DNA of 64,000 bases from Halonatronum saccharophilum DSM 13868 (GTDB taxonomy: Bacteria; Bacillota; Halanaerobiia; Halobacteroidales; Halobacteroidaceae). The stretch spans positions 8,843-72,842 of the forward strand of contig NZ_KI912097.1 in assembly GCF_000517025.1 (NCBI RefSeq), given 5' to 3'. The notes below the pieces were generated by a model that worked only from the letters and a program-made list of their open reading frames with translations, was not told where the DNA came from and did no database searches. Within the stretch, counting starts at the first letter, position 1, and each line of letters begins with the position of its first letter. A program made the position numbers and the translations under genes. Shown here one piece after another: positions 678 to 54,776 of this stretch.

Positions 678-3600
678 TGAAGATGTCTGACTTTTCAGTT
701 GATAGACCAGTAACCATTTTGATGATGGTCTTATTGGTAGTAGTGGTAGGTATTGTGTCATTAAATCGCTTACCTTTAGATTTATTTCCAGATTTGGATC
801 TTCCTTATGTAGCCGTTATAACCAACTATGAAGGTGTTGGCCCGGAAGAGATTGAAAATTCGATAACTAGACCAATAGAAGAGCGAGTAGGTACTGTTGA
901 TGGGGTTAAGGACATATACTCTATGACCAGCCCAGGAACTTCTTTGGTTTTAATAGAGCTTGATTGGAGTGTGGATGTAGATTTTGCTACCTTGGATATG
1001 AGAGAGAGTATATCTTTAATTGAAGATTTTCTCCCTGATGAATCAAATAAGCCAATGGTTGTAAAGTTTGATCCAAGTCAGATGCCTATTATGGAGATAG
1101 CAATTTCAGGAGATATGGGCTTAGATAGATTGAAGTCAATAGGTGAAGATAATTTCAAACCATCTTTAGAGAGAATTGCTGGGGTTGCTTCTGTAGATGT
1201 AGTAGGTGGTTTGGAAAGAGAAATTCAGATAAATGTAAATCAACAAAGAATGAATGCTTATGGTCTTGATTTAGATACAATTGCTGGAGCTATTAGCCAG
1301 GCCAATTTAAATCTTTCTGGTGGTTCAATTAATGAAGGTGACAAGGAGTTTTTATTAAAGACTGTTGGAGAATTCCAAAGTGTAGACCAGATTAGAGATC
1401 TAGAGATTATTGGGCCAAGAGGAAATAAGGTGGCCTTAGAAGATGTAGCTTCTATTGAGGATAGCTTTAAAGATGTAAATCAATATACCTTTCTAAATGG
1501 GAAGGAGAGTATTGGTCTATCGATTCAAAAGCAAAGTGGAGCCAATACTGTACAGGTAGCTAATGAAGTAGAGAGAGAGTTAAATAGATTAGAGGAGAAC
1601 TTTGGTCAAGACCTTAACTTAGAGGTAGTTATGAATCAAGCCGAGTTTATCCAGGATTCTATTGATAATGTAACTAGGAATGGAATTATCGGTGCTCTAT
1701 TGGCCATGTTGATATTATTCTTATTCTTAAAGAACTTTAGAAGTACAATAGTTATAGGTACAGCTATTCCAGTTTCAGTTATGGCAGCCTTTGTTCTAAT
1801 GTACTTTGCAGATTTAAGTTTAAACTTGATGACCTTAGGTGGAATTGCCTTGGGTATAGGAATGCTTGTGGATAATGCTATAGTTGTGTTAGAGAATATT
1901 TACCGGCATCGCCAAGAGGGGATGGGTAGAATTGAAGCAGCTAAGAAAGGGACTAGTGAAGTAGGTACGGCCATCTTTGCTTCTACCTTAACTACAGCTG
2001 CAGTATTCTTGCCAATTGCTTATGTTGATGGTTTTGCTTCTAGGATCTTTGGAGCCTTAGCTTTAACAGTTACCTTTGCTTTAGTTGCTTCTTTATTGGT
2101 AGCTTTGACTTTGATACCTATGTTATCTTCAAAGCTATTAGTGGTAAAGAATAAAGTTGCAGATATAAAGGATGAATTGGACTTTGGCCCAATTACTAAG
2201 GGGTACCAGAGAGTTCTAAAGTCATCTTTGAGGTTTAGATATTTAATAGCAGCATCTTTGGTTTTAGGGTTGATTTTATTTGGGGTAGGATTAAGTTTAG
2301 AAATAATTCCTTTAAATGCTGAGTTTATTCCTGCAACTGATCAAGGTGCTTTGAGGGTGAATATAGAGATGCCTCAGGGTACAAATCTAGAAGAGACTCT
2401 TAAAGCAACCCAAGAAGTAGAGGGATATTTGGATAATATAGTCGAAATCAACTCCTATGATAGTAGAATTGGAGGGGGAGGATTCTTAGGGTCTAGTTCT
2501 GAATCTAACACCTCTAGAATAGCAGTTAACCTAGTCCATTTAAGTCAAAGAGATAGAAGTACTGTAGATATTGCAGAAGAGATTAGAGAAGAGGTAAGAA
2601 ATATAGCTGGACCCCAAATTAGAGTAAATCCACAGACAGATATGTTTGGTGGTGGCGGAGGTATGGATGGAGCACCAATTATGCTACACATCCAAGGCCC
2701 AGATTTAGAAGTTCTAGCAGACCTTTCAGACCAGATAGCTAATCGAGTAAGGGAAGTTGAAGGAACAAGAAATGTAGATACAGGTATAGGTGAGGGTCGA
2801 CCAGAGGTTCAAGTAAATATTAGAAGAGGTATTGCTAGACAGTTAGGATTTAGTGAAGCCCAGATTGCTAATGCTGTAAATAACTCAGTTAGTGGTAGGG
2901 TTATCGGTAATTACAAAGAAGGTGGAGAAGAGTTTGATATTAGATTAAGGTTAGATGAGGATGATGTTAGAACGATTAATAGGTTAAATGACCTTAAGAT
3001 TACTTCGCCTGAAGGGATTACTGTTCCTTTAGCCCAGGTTGCAGATGTTGAGGTTGTAGAAGGGCCAACAGGAATTGATAGAATGAGCCAACAAAGGTTG
3101 GTAAGTGTTTCTACTGATCTTTATGGAAGGAGCCTAAGTGAGGTAGAAAGTGATATTAGAAAAATCCTTAGCGATTTAAATCTTCCTGATGGTTATACAA
3201 TAGAATATGGTGGAGAGGTTCAAGAGATGCAAGATTCCTTTAGTGATCTATTCTTTGCTTTAATCATGGCCATAGTATTGGTTTATATGATTATGGCTGC
3301 TCAGTTTGAATCATTAATCCACCCATTTACCATTATGTTTACAGTACCATTAGCCTTAGTTGGAGCATTATTAGGCTTGGCTATAACTGGTGCTCCTTTG
3401 AGTGTACCTGCTATAATTGGGGTAATTATGTTAGCTGGTATTGTAGTTAATAATGCCATTGTAATGGTCGATTATATAAATATTCGTCGGAAGAAGGAAG
3501 AACGTCAAGAGGCCATCTTAAATGCAGGGCCAATCCGTTTAAGACCGATTATGATGACTACGTTAACAACTGTATTAGGTTTGCTTCCTTTATCTCTAGG

Positions 3601-41332: not shown

Positions 41333-41378
41333 ATTCTGCTTAATATGGCGATATTATTAATGGAGGTGAGAAACCCCA

Positions 41379-41555
41379 ATGGCAAAGATAATGTCTGATA
41401 GGACCAAGTATGAGTTAGCCGAGGAGTTAGGATTCTCTCATAAGGTTCAAGACGGAGATTGGGGAAATATAACCACCAGAGAAGCTGGGTCTTTAGTTAG
41501 ACGAGCAGTCGAGAAGGCCGAGGAGATGTTAGCCCAGCAGGAGAACGGGAGATAG
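41379..41555 (+). CDS. Alpha/beta-type small acid-soluble spore protein (SASP)
   Basis: 58 residues behind AATGGAGGTGAGAAACCCCA. The sequence has KYELAEELGFSHKVQDGDWG and then NITTREAGSLVRRAVEKAEE, the conserved core of the Clostridia-type SASP variants. These proteins coat and protect DNA in dormant spores. SASP genes are normally transcribed in the forespore by sigma-G; I cannot identify a clear -35/-10 here. The terminator stem begins before the stop codon. Confidence 0.9.
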   Translation: MAKIMSDRTKYELAEELGFSHKVQDGDWGNITTREAGSLVRRAVEKAEEMLAQQENGR

Positions 41556-51524: not shown

Positions 51525-52265
51525 GTGATTATAAAAATTTCTGAGTGGAAGATATATCTAAGTATACTTTTTATTTATTTAATTTTTTTTCTACCTAAAG
51601 AGTTGAATTTAAGTAATATTATAGTAAAGACACCACCTTTAGGCCAACGAGTAGTCGTTATTGATGCAGGTCATGGAGGTATAGATGGTGGGACCACCTA
51701 TGGTGGGATACTGGAAAAGGATATCAACTTAAAGATAGCTTCAAAGTTAAAAGACTATCTTCTTGAAAAAAGTGATACTAAGGTTATTATGACTAGAGAA
51801 GAGGATATCTCCTTAGACCATCTCAATAATTACTCTAGAAGTAGACATACTCGTGATATTAGAGCAAGGATAGATATTATTAACCAAAAAGAAGTAGATC
51901 TATTTATAAGTATTCATGTAGATAATAGGTTAGGCCAACGATCTATGAGAGGCCCTGTCGTTCTTTACAGCTCTCGTCATAAGGAGAATAAGACAATTGC
52001 AGAGACATTACAAAAGCATCTAAATAATTTAGGTTACCAAGGAGTTGAGGATACAAAGCACAATATAAAGAGACGCAATGATCTTTATATACTCAAATCT
52101 CAAAATACTCCTGGGGTATTAGTAGAAGTAGGTTTTATTACAAATCCTTTAGATTGGGAGCTACTTCAAAAGACCCATTACCAGCAAGCTTTAGTAGAGG
52201 GAATCTATCGGGGAATTGAAGAGTATTTTTCTGGATTTAAGTTCTTTAAGGAGGTGAGTTTTTGA
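51525..52265 (+). CDS. cwlD: N-acetylmuramoyl-L-alanine amidase, CwlD-like
   Basis: 246 residues starting at GTG 51525. An N-terminal membrane anchor (about 8-25) precedes an amidase_3 domain with zinc ligands in DAGHGGIDGG, the glutamate in LEKDIN, SIHVDN and the catalytic EVGFITNP. Short length plus a single anchor resembles CwlD, which helps make muramic lactam in the spore cortex. The next gene overlaps it by four bases and also has spore-like features. Confidence 0.85.
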   Translation: MIIKISEWKIYLSILFIYLIFFLPKELNLSNIIVKTPPLGQRVVVIDAGHGGIDGGTTYGGILEKDINLKIASKLKDYLLEKSDTKVIMTREEDISLDHLNNYSRSRHTRDIRARIDIINQKEVDLFISIHVDNRLGQRSMRGPVVLYSSRHKENKTIAETLQKHLNNLGYQGVEDTKHNIKRRNDLYILKSQNTPGVLVEVGFITNPLDWELLQKTHYQQALVEGIYRGIEEYFSGFKFFKEVSF

Positions 52266-53497
52266 TTTGTTTTTCCAGTACTAAGATAAAGTTAATTATA
52301 GTTGCTGTCTTTCTTTTATTATTAGTAGGATCCTCTTTTGCTACTTTGGTTATAAAGGGCAATGATATTTTATTTTGTGAGGAAGTAGTATCTTCCTTTT
52401 ATGAGGATGATAGTTATATCTCTAAAGGCAGCGTTAGATTGAGAAATTTTTTATTATACTCTCCTTTTAGCACTGGAGTAGATTACATATTTAATACTAA
52501 GGATTATAAGGTTAAAAAGAAGGTAGAAGAAGGGGTAGAGAGGGTATTTGCTACTTCAGTTCCAGAAGGTTTATTAATAAATGATGTTGAAGAAATAATT
52601 CAAAATATCGGTTATAAAGAAGGGGTCGTTTATTTTAATCTTGCACCTAAGGTAGATAAATTTGAGGTTATGGAACATTTTTTTATTGTCAATTCTCTTT
52701 TAAAGCTAACAGCCAGTTTTAATGAGGTAGAGTTGGTTCAGTTTTTAGTTGATGGGGTGGAGAGTAACCTATCACCTTATCTAAATTTAAAAAAACCAAT
52801 TAAGGCAAGAAGGACTAAAGGTGCTAAGGTAGCAATTATTATTGATGACTTTGGTAATCATGCTAAAGGGACAGAGGATATGTTTAAGTTAGACCAACAG
52901 ATTACAGCAGCAGTCATTCCCTTTAAGGAGCGGTCTAGAGAGGAAGCCTTAATAGCTAAGGAGAAGGGTTTTGATGTGATAATTCATCTACCTATGGAGC
53001 CAAATAAAGGGAAGATGAGTTGGCTTGGGAGTAAACCTATATTAACATCCTTATCTGATGATGAGATTAAGAAGAGGATGGAAGCTGCTATTGAGGATCT
53101 TGGAGTAGCTATAGGGTTTAATAATCATACAGGTTCTAAGGCTACAGCAGATAGAAGAGTGATGAGGGCTGTTTTAGAGGTGGCAAAGGAGTATGATTTA
53201 ATTGCTATAGATAGCAAGACCAGTGGAGAGTCTGTAGTAGAAGAGGTATGCAAAGAACTTGGAGTCAGGTATCTAGAAAGGGATATCTTCTTAGATGGTA
53301 GAAGAGATTATGGTGAGGTTAGAGATGCGACACTCTTATTGACAGGTCAGGCCATAAAAAGAGGAAGTGCTATAGGGATTGGCCATGTTGGCCCGCATGG
53401 TGGCGATGTAACAAGTAGGGTCTTAAAGGAGTTACTACCCTCTTTAGAGGAGATTGGAATCGAAGTAGTTGGGGTAAGTAAGCTGGTAGGTTATTGA
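52262..53497 (+). CDS. GerMN domain fused to divergent polysaccharide deacetylase
   Basis: 411 residues, TTG 52262 overlapping cwlD, with GGAGGTGAG at the end of that gene. A signal peptide or anchor (about 8-28) is followed by a GerMN-like domain (about 85-170: VYFNLAPKVDKFEVMEH to VELVQFLVDGVES). Then comes the divergent deacetylase domain (PF04748: VAIIIDDFGNHAKGTEDM, VIIHLPMEP, FNNHTGSKATADRRVM, GIGHVGPHGG). GerM is involved in spore germination and cortex assembly. The fusion and cwlD coupling suggest a cortex or peptidoglycan role. Confidence 0.85.
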   Translation: MICFSSTKIKLIIVAVFLLLLVGSSFATLVIKGNDILFCEEVVSSFYEDDSYISKGSVRLRNFLLYSPFSTGVDYIFNTKDYKVKKKVEEGVERVFATSVPEGLLINDVEEIIQNIGYKEGVVYFNLAPKVDKFEVMEHFFIVNSLLKLTASFNEVELVQFLVDGVESNLSPYLNLKKPIKARRTKGAKVAIIIDDFGNHAKGTEDMFKLDQQITAAVIPFKERSREEALIAKEKGFDVIIHLPMEPNKGKMSWLGSKPILTSLSDDEIKKRMEAAIEDLGVAIGFNNHTGSKATADRRVMRAVLEVAKEYDLIAIDSKTSGESVVEEVCKELGVRYLERDIFLDGRRDYGEVRDATLLLTGQAIKRGSAIGIGHVGPHGGDVTSRVLKELLPSLEEIGIEVVGVSKLVGY

Positions 53498-53502
53498 ATT
53501 TT

Positions 53503-53532
53503 GTAACAAAATCCTTCCTAAAACATAGATTG
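53503..53532 (+). promoter_or_regulatory. Sigma-K-like promoter 1
   Basis: GTAACA (53503-53508), 15 bases, CATAGATTG (53524-53532). Bacillus sigma-K promoters have AC at -35 and CATAnnnTA at -10 with 16-17 bases between AC and CATA. AC to CATA is 16 here. Confidence 0.65.
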
Positions 53533-53561
53533 TATTAGAAGAGCTAAAAGGAGGGATAAAG

Positions 53562-53663
53562 GTGGAAGATTATCAAGGAGCAGGAGCACAGCCTTACTTA
53601 GGAGGAAGCTATGTCTTTGTTATCTTTTTAATTTTGATTCTATTAGTACTAGGCTTATGGTAA
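53562..53663 (+). CDS. 33-residue hydrophobic peptide, YjcZ-like (copy 1)
   Basis: GTG 53562 with AAAGGAGGGATAAAG. MEDYQGAGAQPYLGGSY leads to a single membrane segment FVIFLILILLVLGLW at the extreme C-terminus. Its four relatives downstream share this tail. It recalls the YjcZ-type small sporulation proteins, and the promoter resembles sigma-K sites. The product would be a one-helix membrane peptide made late in the mother cell. Confidence 0.75.
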   Translation: MEDYQGAGAQPYLGGSYVFVIFLILILLVLGLW

Positions 53664-53746
53664 ATTTTCACAATGTATATTGTCATAAACTGGAGGAGCT
53701 CTATTAGGGGCTCTTCTTATCTTTATATTTTTTGAAAGAAAAATTA

Positions 53747-53777
53747 GTAACAGTCTCTATTAATTGTGCATAAATTG
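53747..53777 (+). promoter_or_regulatory. Sigma-K-like promoter 2
   Basis: GTAACA (53747-53752), 16 bases, CATAAATTG (53769-53777). Confidence 0.62.
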
Positions 53778-53807
53778 TATTAAAGAAGAGGAAAGGAGTG
53801 ATTAAAA

Positions 53808-53897
53808 ATGACATGTAAAGGTGGAGTAGGAGTTTATGATCAACTTGCTTTTGTGCTCTTCTTAATCTTAATTTTATTAATATTAGGTATGTTTTAA
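53808..53897 (+). CDS. 29-residue hydrophobic peptide, YjcZ-like (copy 2)
   Basis: ATG 53808 with GAAAGGAGTGATTAAAA. MTCKGGVGVYDQLAFVLFLI is followed by the shared ILLILGMF membrane tail. It has a short, Gly-rich N-terminus with one cysteine. A hairpin follows (53908-53929). Confidence 0.75.
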   Translation: MTCKGGVGVYDQLAFVLFLILILLILGMF

Positions 53898-53907
53898 TCT
53901 ACGTTAA

Positions 53908-53929
53908 GGAGGGGAAAAGTCTCCCCTCT
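53908..53929 (+). terminator. Hairpin after copy 2
   Basis: GGAGGGGA / TCCCCTCT stem with a short loop; the T-tail starts 14 bases later. Confidence 0.6.
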
Positions 53930-53947
53930 CTTAAATAAAATCTTTTT

Positions 53948-53989
53948 TTTATCTTTTTAATTTTGATCCTATTGGTATTAGGAGCTTAG
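53948..53989 (+). pseudogene. Degenerate copy of the hydrophobic peptide tail
   Basis: A frame of FIFLILILLVLGA then TAG, identical in pattern to the conserved tail of the functional copies, follows a T-run directly. It lacks a start codon, a ribosome site and a promoter. It looks like a truncated former member of the array. Confidence 0.65.
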
Positions 53990-54063
53990 TAATCGTTTAG
54001 CAAAGTTAGGGGGAGGATAGTTTTTCTCTGCTTTGCTCTTCTACATATCCGTTTTTCTTCTCT

Positions 54064-54104
54064 AAAAGCCTCTAGGTTATTTAAATTGGACCAGAGGCTT
54101 TTTT
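54064..54104 (+). terminator. Hairpin before promoter 3
   Basis: AAAAGCCTCT / AGAGGCTTTT stem (54064-54073 with 54093-54102) and a few T's. It isolates the next peptide unit. Confidence 0.8.
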
Positions 54105-54112
54105 AAAATATT

Positions 54113-54142
54113 GTAACATAACTGATTTTAAAGCATAATATA
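54113..54142 (+). promoter_or_regulatory. Sigma-K-like promoter 3
   Basis: GTAACA (54113-54118), 15 bases, CATAATATA (54134-54142), an exact CATAnnnTA. Confidence 0.7.
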
Positions 54143-54173
54143 TATCGAAATAAGGAAAGGGGGAAGTTAGAAG

Positions 54174-54269
54174 GTGGAAGAGTTACAAGGTTTAATAAGA
54201 AGATATCGTAGTGAAATAGCTTTTACTCTTTTTTTAATCTTGATATTATTAGTATTAGGAGTATGGTAA
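54174..54269 (+). CDS. 31-residue hydrophobic peptide, YjcZ-like (copy 3)
   Basis: GTG 54174 behind AAGGAAAGGGGGAAG. A basic N-terminus MEELQGLIRRYRSE is followed by the helix IAFTLFLILILLVLGVW. It shares the M-E-(D/E)-L-Q start with copy 4. Its terminator is at 54286. Confidence 0.75.
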   Translation: MEELQGLIRRYRSEIAFTLFLILILLVLGVW

Positions 54270-54285
54270 GAGCAATAAATTGAGA

Positions 54286-54315
54286 AAAGAGGAGGAAAAA
54301 TTCCTCTTCTTTTTT
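54286..54315 (+). terminator. Hairpin after copy 3
   Basis: AAGAGGA / TCCTCTT stem followed by CTTTTTT. Confidence 0.8.
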
Positions 54316-54358
54316 ATAGGATAATGATTCTAATATTTAATTATATTCAATAAAAAAT

Positions 54359-54388
54359 GTAACAGAATTTATTTAATCACATAAACTA
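54359..54388 (+). promoter_or_regulatory. Sigma-K-like promoter 4
   Basis: GTAACA (54359-54364), 15 bases, CATAAACTA (54380-54388), an exact CATAnnnTA. Confidence 0.7.
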
Positions 54389-54415
54389 TAGAGAAGAAGA
54401 AAGGAGGGGTGAATG

Positions 54416-54511
54416 ATGGAAGATCTGCAAGGAGTGCTTAAAAAATATCATGGTCAGATTGCCTTTGTTCTCTTCCTAATTTTAATATTATTAATATTAG
54501 GAGTTTGGTAA
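54416..54511 (+). CDS. 31-residue hydrophobic peptide, YjcZ-like (copy 4)
   Basis: ATG 54416 (ATG 54413 is adjacent; 54416 fits the M-E start of its relatives) behind AAAGGAGGGG. MEDLQGVLKKYHGQIAFVLF is followed by LILILLILGVW. It has a basic N-terminus and a C-terminal helix. Terminator at 54524. Confidence 0.75.
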   Translation: MEDLQGVLKKYHGQIAFVLFLILILLILGVW

Positions 54512-54523
54512 TAATATTAAAAA

Positions 54524-54551
54524 GGAGAGAAGTATTAACTCTTCTCTCCTA
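54524..54551 (+). terminator. Hairpin after copy 4
   Basis: GGAGAGAAG / CTTCTCTCC stem (54524-54532 with 54541-54549). The T-tail is poor. Confidence 0.7.
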
Positions 54552-54572: not shown

Positions 54573-54602
54573 AAAAGCCAAGGCAATTTTGCCTTGGCTT
54601 TT
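54573..54602. terminator. Bidirectional hairpin between peptide array and minus-strand gene
   Basis: AAAAGCCAAGGC / GCCTTGGCTTTT stem (54573-54584 with 54591-54602), with A's on the left and T's on the right. It can serve the minus-strand small gene. Confidence 0.85.
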
Positions 54603-54617
54603 GGACTTGAAAGCAGA

Positions 54618-54776
54618 TTAGTGTTTATACCAATCCATCATCTTTTGACTCAATTTGCCTAACATAAAGGCACCAGCTGCTACAGCTGCGACCTTAGAAT
54701 AGAATCTGCTAGGATCGGTATTTAGAAGCCTTTCATCCATTCTCCTTTTTGTTTCAAAGACGGATCTAGGTCTCAT
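54618..54776 (-). CDS. 52-residue small protein, unknown
   Basis: Minus strand, ATG at 54776 with AAGGGAGGATAAAAA. MRPRSVFETKRRMDERLL is basic, then SKVAAVAAGAFMLGKL is a short hydrophobic patch, then a tail ending DWYKH. It could be a small membrane-associated or spore protein. No family is recognised. Confidence 0.65.
   Translation of the reverse strand: MRPRSVFETKRRMDERLLNTDPSRFYSKVAAVAAGAFMLGKLSQKMMDWYKH

Follow-up and report, generated by a model that had tools for sequence, protein, structure and literature searches.

Organization of the array and its neighbourhood

The window, that is, the whole stretch of 64,000 bases analysed here, holds four intact tiny ORFs (29–33 codons) and one decayed copy at 53503-54511 on the plus strand, all sharing the tail FLILILL[VI]LG. 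Gene 1 (53562..53663, +) has a GTG start and encodes 33 amino acids, MEDYQGAGAQPYLGGSYVFVIFLILILLVLGLW; it follows a sigma-K-like promoter of the form GTAACA-N15-CATA (53503..53533, +) and is itself followed by a terminator-like hairpin detected in the hairpin scan (53692..53717, +). Gene 2 (53808..53897, +), with an ATG start and a 29-residue product, MTCKGGVGVYDQLAFVLFLILILLILGMF, lies behind a GTAACA-N16-CATA promoter (53747..53778, +). Its hairpin, GAGGGG-N8-CCCCTC followed by a T-rich stretch (53909..53928, +), was read by eye and is absent from the scan output. The decayed fifth copy (53939..53989, +) retains NLFFIFLILILLVLGA* and is without a start codon, Shine-Dalgarno (SD) site or promoter; the tail FFIFLILILLVLGA* alone is left, matching the family profile at E=0.043. 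Gene 3 (54174..54269, +; GTG start, 31 amino acids, MEELQGLIRRYRSEIAFTLFLILILLVLGVW) and gene 4 (54413..54511, +; ATG start, 32 amino acids, MMEDLQGVLKKYHGQIAFVLFLILILLILGVW) are preceded by sigma-K-like promoters found by the pattern scan of the window at 54113..54143 and 54359..54389 (both +), respectively. A terminator-like hairpin from the scan follows gene 3 (54287..54308, +), and the hairpin downstream of gene 4 (54523..54550) was scored as a minus-strand terminator, with a second perfect inverted repeat beyond it (54573-54602).

The original prediction, made from the letters of this DNA, described four functional genes and a broken copy, each gene with GTAACA, 15 or 16 bases, CATA and a hairpin of its own. 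The ORFs lie where it placed them, and the remnant consists of the tail only. The distances from AC to CATA, given there as 16-17, were measured as 16, 17, 16 and 16. The hairpin scan returned 4 terminator-like hairpins in the array versus 0.6 in shuffles; with the gene-2 hairpin read by eye, every intact gene is followed by such a hairpin.

Immediately upstream, the array adjoins a gene for a divergent polysaccharide deacetylase (52262..53497, +; Pfam match to PF04748), next to one for a CwlD-like N-acetylmuramoyl-L-alanine amidase (51525..52265, +; TIGR02883, 177.9 bits, below the curated cut-off of 221.55). Downstream, a convergent 52-aa ORF (54618-54776, minus strand) gave no Pfam or NCBIfam match. 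Elsewhere in the window, a SASP-like reading frame (41370-41555, +; ETPMAKIMSDRTKYELAEELG...GDWGNITTREAGSLV) was identified by eye, which fits the mention of a SASP gene in the original prediction.

Synteny and repeat number, both singled out in that prediction for comparison, could be followed in three relatives: homologues of the PF04748 deacetylase gene immediately precede family genes in G003 (6 copies), G004 (1) and G006 (2). Since the heads of the peptides are alike within a given genome, this pattern suggests that the arrays at the deacetylase site grow and shrink by lineage-specific duplication.

Coding evidence and extent of the family

Over the ten tail codons, pN/pS was 0.043 among the four window copies and 0.13 across 99 tails from relatives, so that the reading frames, whose lack of conservation the original prediction had named as evidence against itself, are conserved in related genomes. 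At tail positions 1, 2, 4, 5, 6 and 7 the amino acid never varies among the 99 tails, with Leu at positions 2, 4, 6 and 7 in every one of them, encoded by both TTR and CTN codons and using all leucine codons. Because conservation at the DNA level cannot give a low tail pN/pS together with invariant Leu in varied codons, we conclude that the ORFs are real genes under selection at the protein level. That such very short frames, two of which begin with GTG, arose by chance in AT-rich DNA or are repeats without a product would be conceivable; this reading is already contradicted by the codon evidence and also faces conservation in more than 70 genera and SD sites and promoters placed in register, and it can practically be discounted.

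A first profile, built from the four window copies and searched against 41 genomes (the window's own included), produced matches at E<=1 in 33 genomes. The search for the tail motif in relatives, as proposed in the original prediction, gave strong matches in tiny ORFs in 15 of the 41 genomes (own genome counted), with up to 15 matches per genome; carriers usually have several family genes. About 110 member ORFs were extracted, and a wider profile of 67 sequences was searched against 398 genomes sampled from the phylum, 110 of which contained matches. The carriers include Orenia metallireducens, Natroniella sulfidigena, Desulforamulus aquiferis, Desulfotruncus alcoholivorax, Desulfofundulus thermobenzoicus, Moorella thermoacetica, Thermovorax subterraneus and Fervidicola ferrireducens, as well as MAGs of Pelotomaculum, Hydrogenispora and Fermentithermobacillaceae. 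In a few members the C-terminus is extended (by up to ~65 residues in some), giving total lengths of 73-109 residues; a long N-terminal region is present in one member.

Single E-values of short hydrophobic profiles are unreliable, and the case for the family therefore stands on small-ORF context, codon evidence, promoters and distribution taken together. Family searches were run by DNA pattern as well as by profile. The DNA-pattern search yielded 399 pattern stretches, of which tblastn confirmed 0, probably owing to low-complexity masking; a tblastn search of plasmids likewise returned 0 matches, which is uninformative given the same probable masking. Exact-motif matches in Pelagibacter, Flavobacteria and similar organisms were rejected as family members by profile. 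Additionally, two members were observed on IMG/VR contigs classed as viral (L392, L382), probably in the host flank of a prophage.

The peptides had no sequence match in Pfam, NCBIfam, PADLOC or PDB, all weak Pfam matches being below the curated cut-offs, and no PHROGs match below E 0.05. Among the weak matches, the betacoronavirus NS7B Pfam model, hit by some members at E 0.0016 and below its cut-off, was rejected as a similarity of helix composition. Open-licence PMC text, to which the literature search was limited, contained no publication naming the motif or the family. The peptides are a large, unnamed and undescribed family of many anaerobic spore formers. The original prediction took such an array to be possibly undescribed; no family in the databases searched covers the peptides, and the family extends far beyond this array and the Halobacteroidaceae. 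Separately promoted genes in tandem are only one arrangement, and the family also includes lone genes, clusters that lack separate promoters, and longer fusions. Bacillus is already known to have YjcZ genes in several copies, so that tiny multi-copy sporulation peptides are in themselves no novelty.

Promoters and the link to sporulation

A search of all 64,000 bases for GTAACA-N14-17-CATA found exactly 4 plus-strand sites (53503, 53747, 54113 and 54359) and 0 on the minus strand. CATA lies 33-40 bases upstream of each intact gene, and the window promoters read CATAnnnT with TA or TG. Among family members, the strict pattern AC-N16/17-CATA-N2/3-TA, a short consensus, was present upstream of 41 of 108, compared with 1.4 in dinucleotide shuffles and 1 of 114 large ORFs; outside the class it preceded 20 of 94 members versus 1.1 in mononucleotide shuffles. 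With only AC and TA...T held fixed, CA was found before TA in 58 of 96 sites versus a diffuse background. As CA precedes TA without being required, the promoter is of the CATA type of mother-cell sigma factors. The third base of the -35 element is never G (0/56). A sigma-A reading, considered for CATATAAT, which contains TATAAT, was rejected on two grounds: the selection for C and A ahead of TA, and the lack of any G at position 3 of the -35 element. The AC of the -35 element and its spacing fit the sigma-K consensus. Upstream of roughly half of the other members no such site can be recognised, and many of these are second genes in a cluster.

The window's own genome encodes SigK (G000:C6:587439-588110; 322.8 bits, curated cut-off 298.65). 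In this genome, TAACA-N15/16-CATANNNT occurs 36 times versus 19 for the reversed control, and the pattern spaced one base longer shows no excess (31 versus 33). Elsewhere in the genome, a YlmC/YmxH sporulation gene lies behind the same promoter. Sites combined with a well-placed SD and an ORF include those of the family genes, the YlmC/YmxH protein, a LysM-like protein (a likeness seen by eye, the first 90 residues having no profile match) and two Cys-containing proteins of ~93 residues. The last two (L292 and L294, G000:C6:93682-94800) are paralogues with the pattern SGxNCCExTGCxGEI...CVRxYIRIDCICAI and sigma-K-like promoters; they matched no Pfam or NCBIfam family and are candidate coat proteins. 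Furthermore, a small one-helix protein, MEETYAQRNPGLKPGLKPGLKPGLGIGLAGILPLALVVLLVLSIL (L300, G000:C6:548646), has a sigma-K-like promoter and is unrelated to the FLILILL core.

In one relative, sigK itself is split near codon 70 (L400, G010:C35:22500-26000, positions 367-624, 612-2063 and ~2574-3050). The N-terminal part (TIGR02846 positions 7-71) and the C-terminal part (69-225) lie on one strand ~2 kb apart, and between them is essentially a single opposite-strand gene of 483 aa, large serine recombinase-like by sequence; the interruption looks like a minimal one-gene skin element. In three more relatives the halves break at the same point, around residue 70, and lie on different contigs (G003:C6:209765-209977 and C7:61136-61609; G006:C87:7553-7756 and C44:22010-22489) or the second half was not found (G005:C31:30780-30992). 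These breaks suggest that a skin-like sigK interruption is common in this group of relatives.

To relate the family to sporulation, TIGR02846 at E<=1e-40 was used as the marker in the same 398 genomes; because this marker also scores SigE, the comparison shows sporulation and not SigK alone. The family was present in 109 of 342 SigE/K-positive genomes versus 1 of 56 negative ones (Fisher p = 9e-8, an optimistic value as related genomes are not independent, yet the pattern recurs across many families). Thus, 109 of the 110 carriers have SigE/K, the sole negative carrier, G228, being a fragmented assembly. In the class sample, the corresponding counts were 15 of 23 and 0 of 18. In families f2 and f4, relatives that sporulate have no detectable member, which shows that the peptides are dispensable for sporulation; the sporulating relatives G011 and G014 lack them. 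The co-occurrence with SigE/K and the recurring promoter support the proposal that the array would be a late mother-cell sporulation module, and from these sequence data a role in sporulation under sigma-K control appears highly probable.

Peptide architecture, possible function and significance

The members share a layout of a variable head of ~10-15 residues, a helix with the consensus [AV]F[VI][IL]FLILILLxLG, and a short C-terminal end, usually with an aromatic residue (80 of 94 short tails). AlphaFold2 predicted a single helix over residues 2-31 of the gene 4 peptide (mean pLDDT 86.7). At ~16 residues, the hydrophobic stretch is short for crossing a whole membrane. The heads have a mean charge of -1, and Gly, Tyr, Asp and Asn make up half of their residues; heads and tails alike are rich in Gly and Tyr, which gives them a coat-like composition. 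Within these otherwise variable peptides of ~30 residues, 9 of the 10 core positions are near-invariant.

We consider it probable, by a modest degree, that these are late mother-cell peptides with an invariant helix in a membrane of the developing spore and a variable head towards the coat. Sigma-K RNA polymerase would transcribe each gene in the mother cell as its own short mRNA, and the helix would insert post-translationally into a membrane that faces the mother cell, probably the outer membrane of the forespore, with the aromatic residues at the interface. The strict Leu/Ile pattern covers all helix faces, which suggests that these invariant residues pack with other copies of the peptide or with a fixed partner. 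The head would remain in the coat space, where it would serve for anchoring or as a structural element, and copy number would set dosage and head variety. We infer sigma-K transcription, the membrane target, self-packing and the structural role alike, and the specific membrane/coat role is put forward tentatively, at less than even likelihood. Ten consecutive conserved residues exceed the needs of a membrane anchor, and the membrane/coat model leaves them unexplained.

The closest analogue in design and regulation is YjcZ (PF09680, YjcZ_2), and the peptides might be a divergent branch of the Bacillus YjcZ proteins, with the same ancestry and the same sigma-K-stage role. Both are small and multi-copy, with a Gly/Tyr-rich head and one short C-terminal helix ending in Gly, and yjcZ belongs to the described sigma-K regulon of B. 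subtilis (PMC517825). Desulfotomaculum-type members such as MGYGYGGYYNNSFIIFLILILLILSMPYYGPYSEEK closely resemble Anoxybacillus YjcZ MGYGGNNGFVLIVVLFILLIIVGAAFMGY, and a small profile of three YjcZ sequences gave weak, composition-biased matches to some members (best E 0.0009). However, at its 21-bit cut-off PF09680 matched none of the 4 window proteins or 67 family members, and it had 0 above-cut-off matches in the own genome and 20 relatives (21 genomes), compared with 6 in Anoxybacillus. No member matches any NCBIfam YjcZ model, and an hhalign comparison with the three YjcZ sequences gave an alignment of only 6 columns (29% probability). The helix cores are unlike in both sequence and length (GFVLIVVLFILLIIVG in YjcZ versus FLILILLxLG here), with no above-cut-off profile match in either direction; the heads here are often acidic or Arg-rich, and the family here is found in anaerobic spore formers. 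As the profile is without a match, membership is not established by sequence, and common descent with YjcZ seems rather unlikely, if still a serious candidate. SpoVM, a mother-cell peptide of ~26 residues seated on the outer forespore membrane, is alike in size and setting, but it is a single-copy, sigma-E-dependent peptide with an amphipathic, curvature-sensing helix, whereas the peptides here are hydrophobic, multi-copy and behind sigma-K-type promoters.

Membrane-active peptides that form pores late under sigma-K and release the spore by lysing or permeabilising the mother cell would also be very hydrophobic, tiny and multi-copy under the latest sigma factor, and an oligomeric pore would fit the conservation on every face of the helix. 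The invariant core, however, has no amphipathic or pore-lining polar face, the heads are coat-protein-like, and C-terminal extensions would be odd in a lysin, which makes this function improbable. Type I toxins such as Ibs, Ldr and Fst are tiny hydrophobic peptides, often in tandem arrays, and a toxin-antitoxin or plasmid-stability system repressed by antisense RNA could draw on this likeness and on a few sigma-70-like sites on the minus strand. These sites are not enriched (8 versus 4.7 +/- 2.6), the promoters are of the sigma-K type, the distribution tracks sporulation genes, neither PHROGs (below E 0.05) nor PADLOC matched, and the genes are syntenic with a chromosomal deacetylase gene; a toxin function is accordingly very improbable.

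Beyond the membrane/coat model, it is conceivable, though doubtful, that FLILILLxLG is a dedicated self-assembling helix module used across the anaerobic half of the spore-forming Bacillota, which would build a previously unknown proteinaceous spore layer or membrane lattice. Its heads would be freely exchanged and sometimes replaced by larger domains, and its genes would have been missed because they fall below annotation size and are masked by low-complexity filters.

To our knowledge, the sigma-K targets known outside Bacillus and Clostridioides are few. With these peptides, the late sporulation programme of anaerobic spore formers gains a multi-copy protein family that has no name as yet and whose near-invariant core is constrained with unusual strictness for a membrane helix. 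The case illustrates how very small hydrophobic genes slip through annotation and filtered searches, and the family provides a sequence marker that tracks sporulation capacity.
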